Position numbers and translations under genes: made by a program
Notes under the pieces: model-generated
Database searches by the model: none
Seen by the model: only the letters and a program-made list of their open reading frames with translations
Told to the model about the DNA's origin: nothing
From: Desulfurella acetivorans A63
GTDB taxonomy: Bacteria; Campylobacterota_A; Desulfurellia; Desulfurellales; Desulfurellaceae
DNA: 64,000 nucleotides
Direction of reading: 5' to 3'
Assembly (NCBI GenBank): GCA_000517565.1
Contig: CP007051.1
Location: 953,039 to 1,017,038, forward strand
Shown: positions 26,264-28,367 of the stretch, in pieces
Layout: each line of letters opens with the position of its first letter
Numbering within the stretch: the first letter of the stretch is position 1

Positions 26264-26318
26264 ATTGTATATTAAAAGTTGTTAATTAAACATCAAAGAA
26301 TTGTAAAATTTTTGTAAA
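26264..26318 (-). promoter_or_regulatory. Pho box and promoter of the pst-pho operon
   Basis: Reading the minus strand, four hexamers occur at exact 11-bp steps: TTTACA (26318-26313), TTTACA (26307-26302), TTGATG (26296-26291) and TTAACA (26285-26280). Ten bases later comes TACAAT (26269-26264), a good -10 box, and there is no -35 consensus. This is the geometry of PhoB/PhoP-activated promoters, where direct repeats replace the -35 region and end about 10 bp before the -10. Confidence 0.75.
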
Positions 26319-26321
26319 GTT

Positions 26322-26789
26322 CTATTGCAAGGATTTAATTATTTCAATAAAATCACTTTCGCTAATTTTGCCAGGTACTCTAACCCTTGGAATACCTTTT
26401 TTGTCTATAAAAATACTTGTAGGTGTTGCAAAAATCCCTCCAAGAGGCGTAGTTTGTGAATAATTTCCCCAATAAAGAGGGTACTTAACGCCAAATTGAG
26501 AAGCAAAAGCTCTAATTTGATCAACATGATCAAAAGAATCAACACCAATTACTACCACATTCTTTTGGTTTTTTCCATATAATTCATAAAGCTTATTTAA
26601 TGTTGGCACTTCTTTTTGACAATAATAGCAACCAACATCAAAAAAGGTCATTACAACAATCTTACCTTTAAAATTGTCAACATTTGTTTTTTGACCATTT
26701 ATGCCTACTAATTCCAGATTAAACGCAAACGCATTACTTGTTATAATTAAAAAGATTAACAAAGTAAAAAAAATTTTTTTGAAATTCAT
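26322..26789 (-). CDS. TlpA/ResA-like periplasmic thioredoxin
   Basis: Membrane-anchored or secreted thioredoxin-fold protein. Hydrophobic signal (FFTLLIFLIITSNAFA), then the TlpA pattern KGKIVVMTFFDVGCYYCQKEVP with redox motif CYYC, VVIGVDSFD, the cis-Pro region FATPTSIFIDKKG and a short C-terminus. At 155 residues it is a compact member. The start at 26789 has GGGAGG upstream; a longer in-frame reading to 26825 would place non-signal residues first. Partner could be cytochrome or disulfide maturation; none is adjacent. Confidence 0.88.
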   Translation of the reverse strand: MNFKKIFFTLLIFLIITSNAFAFNLELVGINGQKTNVDNFKGKIVVMTFFDVGCYYCQKEVPTLNKLYELYGKNQKNVVVIGVDSFDHVDQIRAFASQFGVKYPLYWGNYSQTTPLGGIFATPTSIFIDKKGIPRVRVPGKISESDFIEIIKSLQ

Positions 26790-26855
26790 AATGGATCCTC
26801 CCTTTCTAAATATGAAAGGTATCACAAATAAATAGAAAAATCAATTACTGATTTC

Positions 26856-27758
26856 TTATTGTTTTTTTTGTTCACTTAGGTTCATTAACCAATATACAAT
26901 TCCCAAAACCAGTACAAGCAAACCAAGTATAGCCACTTCTTCTGACTTTTGGGGTTCAAGTGAAAATATTAAAATTTTTCGCAAAAGAGCTGCCATTGCA
27001 AGACTTATAAATACATTTAAAGCAAATTTTTTACCCTTTAATCTTTTGACTTCTTCTTCTAAAAGCTCTCTTACAGTCCACAAAATTAACATAGCACCAA
27101 GTATGTTAATTACCGTATGTTCAAACGAAGAATTAGAATTAAGTAAAAATTTAAATATATCGGATACAAACAAGAAAAATATCAATAGACTTGTCAATAC
27201 AAGCAAACTAACTAAACCGACATCAAAAAAATACGATAATCTCGAGCTCAACCTAACTATATTAGTTTCTATTTTGCTTTTTGCAACATAGAATTGATTT
27301 TCATCAATATATGAACTTGTCATTATATCTAAATTTATATCTAGTATTTTATCAATTGATAGTTTAAGTTCTTCTTGTCTATGATATACATCATAATTTT
27401 CTAATACAATGCTGTGTAAAAAAGATCTAATAAAATTCATAGTAGCACTTACATAATGTGAAGGTAGTCCTATTTGAGCATGCACTTCACCTATTTTTTT
27501 AATCTTTCTTAAATAATCTTCATTGAATTGTGCATTAAATAAATCCAAAAACCATAATTTTAATTTCTCTTTATGACGATTTTTAATTTCTTCGCTTGAT
27601 AAAAATTTGCTATAGTCATCAAAATTAGATATAAATTTATGAAGTTCTTCTACAAAACTATTAGCATTTTTCTTTGCCAAATCTTTTAAGCTTGCTAAAT
27701 TTGATATGTCATCATCCGTCAAGTTATATATTTGAATAATCTTTTCCAAAGTTCCCAC
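26856..27758 (-). CDS. Protoglobin / globin-sensor domain fused to PsiE-like membrane domain
   Basis: Residues 1 to about 160 are an all-helical globin of the protoglobin/globin-coupled-sensor type: LTDDDISNLASLKDLAKK, and EVHAQIGLPSHYV with H93 at the place of the proximal heme ligand (HemAT has HVRIGL). Residues about 175-295 form four hydrophobic helices with the PsiE family pattern: LWTVRELLEEEVKRLKGKK, LAMAALLRKILIFSLE and LGLLVLVLGIVYWLM. PsiE is phosphate-starvation inducible in E. coli, and this gene lies close to the pst operon. Function of the fusion is unknown; O2, NO or redox sensing at the membrane is a reasonable guess. GTG start; no Shine-Dalgarno. Confidence 0.75.
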   Translation of the reverse strand: MGTLEKIIQIYNLTDDDISNLASLKDLAKKNANSFVEELHKFISNFDDYSKFLSSEEIKNRHKEKLKLWFLDLFNAQFNEDYLRKIKKIGEVHAQIGLPSHYVSATMNFIRSFLHSIVLENYDVYHRQEELKLSIDKILDINLDIMTSSYIDENQFYVAKSKIETNIVRLSSRLSYFFDVGLVSLLVLTSLLIFFLFVSDIFKFLLNSNSSFEHTVINILGAMLILWTVRELLEEEVKRLKGKKFALNVFISLAMAALLRKILIFSLEPQKSEEVAILGLLVLVLGIVYWLMNLSEQKKQ

Positions 27759-27766
27759 ACGGTTTA

Positions 27767-27794
27767 ATTATTGTAAAAAAAATGGATTTGTCAA
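27767..27794 (-). promoter_or_regulatory. Predicted promoter of the globin-PsiE gene
   Basis: TTGACA (27794-27789), 16-bp spacer, AATAAT (27772-27767), then only 8 nt to the GTG start at 27758. No Shine-Dalgarno lies between, so this is another possible leaderless start. The spacer also contains TTTACA, so the exact -10 is uncertain. Confidence 0.5.
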
Positions 27795-27835
27795 TATTTT
27801 AGCTGCCCGCTGTAATTGCAGGCAGCTAAAATATT
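27793..27835 (-). terminator. Hairpin terminator after the SCP2-like gene
   Basis: Perfect 15-bp arms (AATATTTTAGCTGCC and its complement) around a 13-base loop. It begins one base after the stop of the SCP2-like gene and overlaps the -35 box of the globin-PsiE promoter. Confidence 0.75.
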
Positions 27836-28327
27836 TTAAGGGCATGATTCGCTATAAGGAACTTTACCTAAACCTATCAAAAAAGCTTTAAAAGGTGCAA
27901 TAAATTGCATTGCTTCGCCTTTTGACCCTATAAAAGTCATTTTAGAAAACATTCCTATATTCATAAAACCAAAATTACCTGCTGCTAAAGATTTCCAATT
28001 TTGAGTTGTAGCATACATTGTAAACTCTGGATGGGGGTCTTTTTGAGCACCACCATAAATACATACTGCTTTTCCGTTTTCATTTTTAATTTCGACTTCT
28101 GAAATTATTTTTGGGTTACAATCTTGCCTATAAAAAGCTATGGTTTTGTAACCTTTTTCCTTATTAACATTGTATTTCGACCATTCTGCCATGGTAGTCT
28201 GCAGATGCTCGTTCCAATAAGAACAAAATTCTTTTGTCCAACTAGCACTCATCCAGGGTTGTTCCGCTAAAGATAAAGAACATGAAATCAACAAAATAAA
28301 TGCACTTAACACAAATCCTTTAAACAT
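27836..28327 (-). CDS. Secreted SCP2-like (sterol-carrier fold) protein
   Basis: About 163 residues with a signal peptide (GFVLSAFILLISCSLSLA, cleavage near residue 21). After it come WMSASWTKEFCSYWNEHLQT, a beta-rich core (KTIAFYRQDC, GKAVCIYGG) and TMYATTQNWKSLAAGNFGFMNIGMFSKMTFIG, which resembles the SCP2 lipid-binding pattern in which the last helix covers a hydrophobic tunnel. Four or five cysteines remain in the mature chain. Ligand and role are unknown. ATG at 28327 has GGAGGTG upstream; a reading from 28339 would start before the ribosome site. Own promoter and terminator: single-gene unit. Confidence 0.6.
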   Translation of the reverse strand: MFKGFVLSAFILLISCSLSLAEQPWMSASWTKEFCSYWNEHLQTTMAEWSKYNVNKEKGYKTIAFYRQDCNPKIISEVEIKNENGKAVCIYGGAQKDPHPEFTMYATTQNWKSLAAGNFGFMNIGMFSKMTFIGSKGEAMQFIAPFKAFLIGLGKVPYSESCP

Positions 28328-28367
28328 CAACACCTCCAAAAAATGATAAATTTATTTAACTAGATTA

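Follow-up and report, generated by a model that had tools for sequence, protein, structure and literature searches.

A putative membrane-anchored globin-coupled sensor of the GsGCS type, with its distal histidine at E7, in Desulfurella acetivorans

What does a globin do when it is joined to a PsiE-family membrane domain and encoded next to a phosphate-transport operon? This question is raised by one gene in the window, the 64,000-nucleotide stretch of Desulfurella acetivorans A63 DNA that we analysed. A sequence-only reading had described the product as a protoglobin fused to a PsiE-like domain and proposed a heme sensor tied to phosphate physiology. The gene and its two domains lie as follows.

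26856..27758, minus strand: globin-coupled sensor gene, Protoglobin-PsiE (intact ORF of 300 aa; relatives' starts aligned)
27294..27749, minus strand: Protoglobin domain, residues 4-155 (Pfam, sequence match to 2w31, Foldseek)
26871..27215, minus strand: PsiE-family membrane domain, residues 182-296, four predicted helices (Pfam, model helices, hydropathy maxima)

Fusion, fold and membrane half

The reading frame is intact on the minus strand, from a GTG start codon at 27758 to the end of the stop codon at 26856, and the ATG or GTG starts of close relatives (M/V-E/D-T) align with this GTG. Profile search recovered both proposed domains above the curated Pfam cut-offs: Protoglobin (PF11563) at the N-terminus with 93 bits against 25 (E 2.5e-26), and PsiE (PF06146) over residues 182-296 with 72.3 bits against 23.9 (E 5e-20). 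Since both E-values are far past chance and the domains recur jointly in 43 of 43 Pfam-scanned homologs, including those closest to 2w31, we consider the fusion real. The host genome (1.82 Mb) has a single Protoglobin copy and a single PsiE copy, both in this frame. NCBIfam holds no model for the 300-aa protein, and we found no paper in the open-licence literature that names both Protoglobin and PsiE, in agreement with the earlier remark that no role had been described.

The best solved relative by sequence was 2w31 (6.6e-27), which is the globin part of GsGCS, the globin-coupled sensor of Geobacter sulfurreducens. The family profile scored 183.6 bits against it, far above HemAT, DosC or AfGcHK. 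An AlphaFold model of the whole protein reached a pLDDT of 80.8, with values of about 90-95 across most of the globin, and Foldseek aligned the predicted globin half with 2w31 at a TM score of 0.94.

The four-helix membrane domain had been called correctly: the PsiE match is accompanied by four membrane helices in the models, and hydropathy peaks near residues 189, 225, 258 and 285, the second peak being weak. Modelled alone, this half reached a pLDDT of 73.7, and a PDB fold search with that model gave no match at E below 1. Structure prediction of the junction, which had been suggested as a check, gave a single helix, residues 125-206, that bridges the globin and the membrane domain, but pLDDT is just 56-58 at the junction itself (residues 151-170), so that the continuous helix is weak evidence and is taken as a suggestion. 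Invariant residues of the membrane half are Leu186, Gly221, Leu224, Trp227, Glu231, Phe250 and Arg260; Glu231 and Arg260, present in 76 of 76 homologs, have counterparts in E. coli PsiE. Family homologs show no conserved His or Cys in this half, which makes a bound redox cofactor unlikely. Lys/Arg residues are more numerous in the C-terminus and in the charged loop that joins helices 2 and 3 than in the remaining loops, consistent with a globin on the cytosolic side.

Heme pocket and spread of the family

Three histidine codons are relevant to the putative heme pocket.

27480..27482, minus strand: His93, candidate proximal (F8) heme ligand (75/76 homologs)
27573..27575, minus strand: His62, distal histidine at the E7 position (Geobacter has His66, E11, instead; alignment with 2w31 and homologs)
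27639..27641, minus strand: His40, B10 position (homolog and DosC alignment)

His93, already singled out as a candidate for the proximal ligand, aligns with His93 (F8) of GsGCS, and Trp69 is invariant (76/76). The GsGCS globin domain of crystal structure 2w31 is reported to be bis-histidyl with HisE11 as the sixth ligand (Pesce 2009, as cited in PMC4476040). The window protein has Leu at residue 66 (E11) and carries its distal His62 one turn earlier, at E7, in place of the HisE11 of bis-histidyl GsGCS. Across the 76 homologs, the distal histidine was found at E7 in 40, at E11 in 22 and at position 61 in 8, while 6 had none. A new detail of the family is that its members place the distal histidine at E7 or E11; E7 is the commoner in this sample, and HisE11 is a trait of the Geobacter protein rather than of the class. 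No homolog (0/76) had histidine at both positions, an exclusivity not statistically shown with only 3-5 independent contrasts; in a quick tree the E7 and E11 proteins fell mostly in separate clades, so the pattern rests on few independent events. At B10, 59 of 76 homologs carry Tyr, as does DosC, whose Tyr43 stabilizes O2 (PMC5549716). Together with the distal-histidine position, His40 suggests that the window protein may differ from its relatives in ligand preference.

We cross-matched by hand globin and PsiE searches of 292 genomes. At least 21 of the 292 carry both domains in one reading frame, and most remaining PsiE matches are stand-alone proteins of 100-210 aa. The distribution check that the sequence-only reading had asked for thus removes the impression of a rare architecture: the fusion is widespread across phyla, is one of the two main PsiE-family architectures in this sample (stand-alone PsiE being the other), and matches the class of the Geobacter globin structure. 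A scan of the same genomes by name returned 21 close relatives, mostly from metagenome genomes, among them one named Candidatus Acididesulfobacter. The sister family within the window's order has stand-alone PsiE in place of the fusion.

In a Geobacter-like family, recognized solely by 55-65% identity to 2w31 and sampled without G. sulfurreducens itself, 57 of 76 genomes gave matches, most of them with reading frames of roughly 300-400 aa; both domains are present in the best matches. The nearest sampled relatives of the crystallized Geobacter globin (57-65% identical) are Protoglobin-PsiE fusions of about 300 aa. The fusion class is therefore very probably the one from which 2w31 was cut, and we infer the PsiE half of GsGCS from these relatives. 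The 2009 Geobacter paper reportedly described a C-terminal transmembrane domain. The window protein falls within a well-supported clade of 22, together with proteins of other phyla. Its homologs from the same class share no more than about 30% identity with it and are placed elsewhere in the tree; horizontal transfer seems likely.

Promoter, neighbours and the pst operon

The pst operon is indeed close, 0.6 kb downstream on the same strand and beyond a TlpA-like gene. The sites considered here are listed in order along the window.

26302..26318, minus strand: Pho-box-like 11-bp direct repeat TTTACAAAAATTTTACA upstream of pstS (sole TTNACA-N5-TTNACA match in the window)
26322..26825, minus strand: TlpA/ResA-like thiol-disulfide protein gene, downstream neighbour (domain match)
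27767..27794, minus strand: promoter-like TTGACA-16-AATAAT, 8 nt before the start codon (promoter scan)
27794..27834, minus strand: perfect 14-bp inverted repeat, terminator-like, between the upstream gene and the Protoglobin-PsiE gene (read from sequence)

Sites found by the promoter scan were no more numerous than in shuffled sequence, so the argument for a promoter is the conservation of its TTGACAAAT box, kept in two congeners, and not the match itself. In the window (27759-27766) and in several relatives (L025-L029, L004, L005), other families included, 6-8 nt separate a -10-like hexamer from the start codon, which suggests that the Protoglobin-PsiE mRNA is nearly leaderless. The terminator scan did not call the 14-bp inverted repeat; at the same place a congener has a hairpin followed by a T run.

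Among about 60 neighbourhoods, pst adjoins the fusion gene in just two, that of the window and that of congener G001, and the remaining neighbourhoods have no pst genes beside it; in a second congener the contig ends inside the fusion gene. The adjacency is a local arrangement, seen in the window's genus only. The TTTACAAAAATTTTACA repeat before pstS is kept in a congener, and no TTNACA direct repeat lies 5' of the fusion gene, which, as far as a motif that is a guess for this lineage can tell, gives no sign of Pho control. With a promoter of its own before the fusion gene and TTTACAAAAATTTTACA only before pstS, transcription of pst appears to start separately. On the evidence of the neighbourhoods, the promoter and the Pho-box-like repeat, we reject a phosphate link as a family trait, and the proposed tie of the heme sensor to phosphate physiology is not supported.

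The TlpA/ResA-like gene stands between the globin gene and pstS in the window's genus only; its listed GTG start is probably too early, and further in, at 26789, there is an ATG that has a Shine-Dalgarno sequence. Upstream, 27836-28339 encodes a small secreted-looking protein with a sub-threshold SCP2 match (E 0.01), kept in congener G001 (78%); in congener G002 (L058) no copy turned up next to the fusion gene. We also looked for a conserved operon partner and rejected it: in the roughly 60 neighbourhoods neighbours were clade-local, none family-wide. They comprise lysine-biosynthesis genes, purH/purD, NDK, a SpoU methylase and a pyridine-nucleotide oxidoreductase. The last, of 479 aa, is a possible clade-specific redox partner: in nine related genomes from metagenomes (L002:4322-5758, L004, L005, L008, L009, L010, L013, L022, L076) its gene adjoins that of the globin-PsiE protein and is transcribed divergently from it. 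In two related genomes (L063:6497-9107, L064:6875-9496; Pfam scan of L063), genes for a receiver-GGDEF response regulator and for a hybrid histidine kinase precede the fusion gene, a possible signalling context.

Possible function and known relatives

Judged by its sequence, the window protein is a genuine, intact, membrane-anchored globin-coupled sensor of the GsGCS type, with the distal histidine at E7 rather than E11. We give somewhat better than even credence to a heme sensor that acts on its own PsiE membrane unit. The analysis shows the two domains, their wide co-occurrence, the conserved ligand positions, the membrane helices and the absence of a phosphate linkage beyond the genus; we infer that the protein binds heme, how the heme is coordinated, the dimer, the ligand, the signal path and the output. 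The globin would be a cytosolic, probably dimeric heme domain with His93 proximal and His62 distal. At rest it would be six-coordinate, and NO, O2 or a redox change would most likely drive the switch to and from a ligand-bound or reduced form. Helix H, the last of the globin, would relay the movement to the first membrane-spanning helix of the PsiE domain; this four-helix domain, the presumed output unit, could change membrane permeability or contact partners through its conserved cytosolic Glu/Arg surface. This reading draws on the two domains above cut-off and their constant co-occurrence, the bis-histidyl closest solved relative, the conserved His93, Trp69, distal-region histidine and Glu231/Arg260, and the 125-206 helix. 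Against it stand the low pLDDT at the junction and the lack of a conserved partner gene that would mark an output pathway in the neighbourhoods.

Alternatively, the activity might reside in the globin itself, which would detoxify NO or transfer electrons, with PsiE as an anchor that holds it at the membrane near the respiratory chain or quinone pool. Hexacoordinate globins have been discussed as electron-transfer proteins (PMC3520999) and the fusion is common in the Geobacter-like family, but there is no fused reductase domain, no reductase neighbour conserved across the family and no conserved His or Cys for a redox cofactor in the membrane half, and a mere anchor would leave the invariant Glu/Arg unexplained; we regard this as unlikely. 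That the protein acts on Pst, PhoU or PhoR, and in this way ties phosphate uptake to the sensing of gas or redox state, seems very improbable to us. The same-strand position beside pst-phoU-phoB-phoR in the window and G001 speaks for it, as does PhoB regulation of E. coli psiE, yet pst is absent from all other neighbourhoods, the adjacency may stem from one inherited arrangement in the genus, and the gene has its own promoter, a preceding inverted repeat and no Pho-box-like repeat, the latter being conserved before pstS. Lowest of all we place a heme-free globin fold that senses another signal or only dimerizes: such domains exist (RsbR, PMC2867796), and 7o0i, an anti-anti-sigma factor, distantly matches the window globin, but the family has retained the proximal histidine, Trp69 and mostly the B10 Tyr, and 2w31 binds heme.

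The sensor reading has a bolder form, which we think improbable: PsiE domains would be signal-driven membrane units, perhaps ion or proton conductors, and in the globin fusions such a unit would be gated directly by the heme switch, with the distal histidine at E7 or E11. If true, this would be a gas- or redox-gated conductance in one protein and would offer a function for the whole PsiE family. Because its input can be controlled with gas and redox, a heme-tagged PsiE is a handle on what PsiE does, and the distal-histidine difference between clades is a natural comparison of heme coordination. A new phosphate-sensing circuit is not supported by the fusion.

Compared with GsGCS, the window globin is 33% identical, superposes on 2w31 with an rmsd of 1.5 A and shares His93 at F8, but has His62 at E7 where GsGCS has His66 at E11, and His at B10 where GsGCS has Tyr. 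E. coli PsiE belongs to the same Pfam family (PF06146), with four membrane helices and matching Glu and Arg positions; its alignment with the window membrane half is weak though full length (hhalign probability 77.6, 20% identity). It lacks a globin and is regulated by PhoB and CRP, the regulation from which the family name PsiE derives (PMC4415409), whereas no Pho-box-like repeat precedes the fused gene. The PsiE-like protein of tLST/LHR orf14, compared by description only, is named as PsiE family (PMC7010813, PMC8290217), has no globin described and is located in a stress-resistance island; chlorine resistance depends on the oxidative-stress module of that island (PMC8290217, PMC7010813). 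HemAT, DosC and AfGcHK share the globin fold and proximal histidine with the window protein, and DosC has its distal Tyr43 aligned with His40; they signal through a chemotaxis, diguanylate cyclase or kinase domain, whereas the window protein would do so through a membrane domain.
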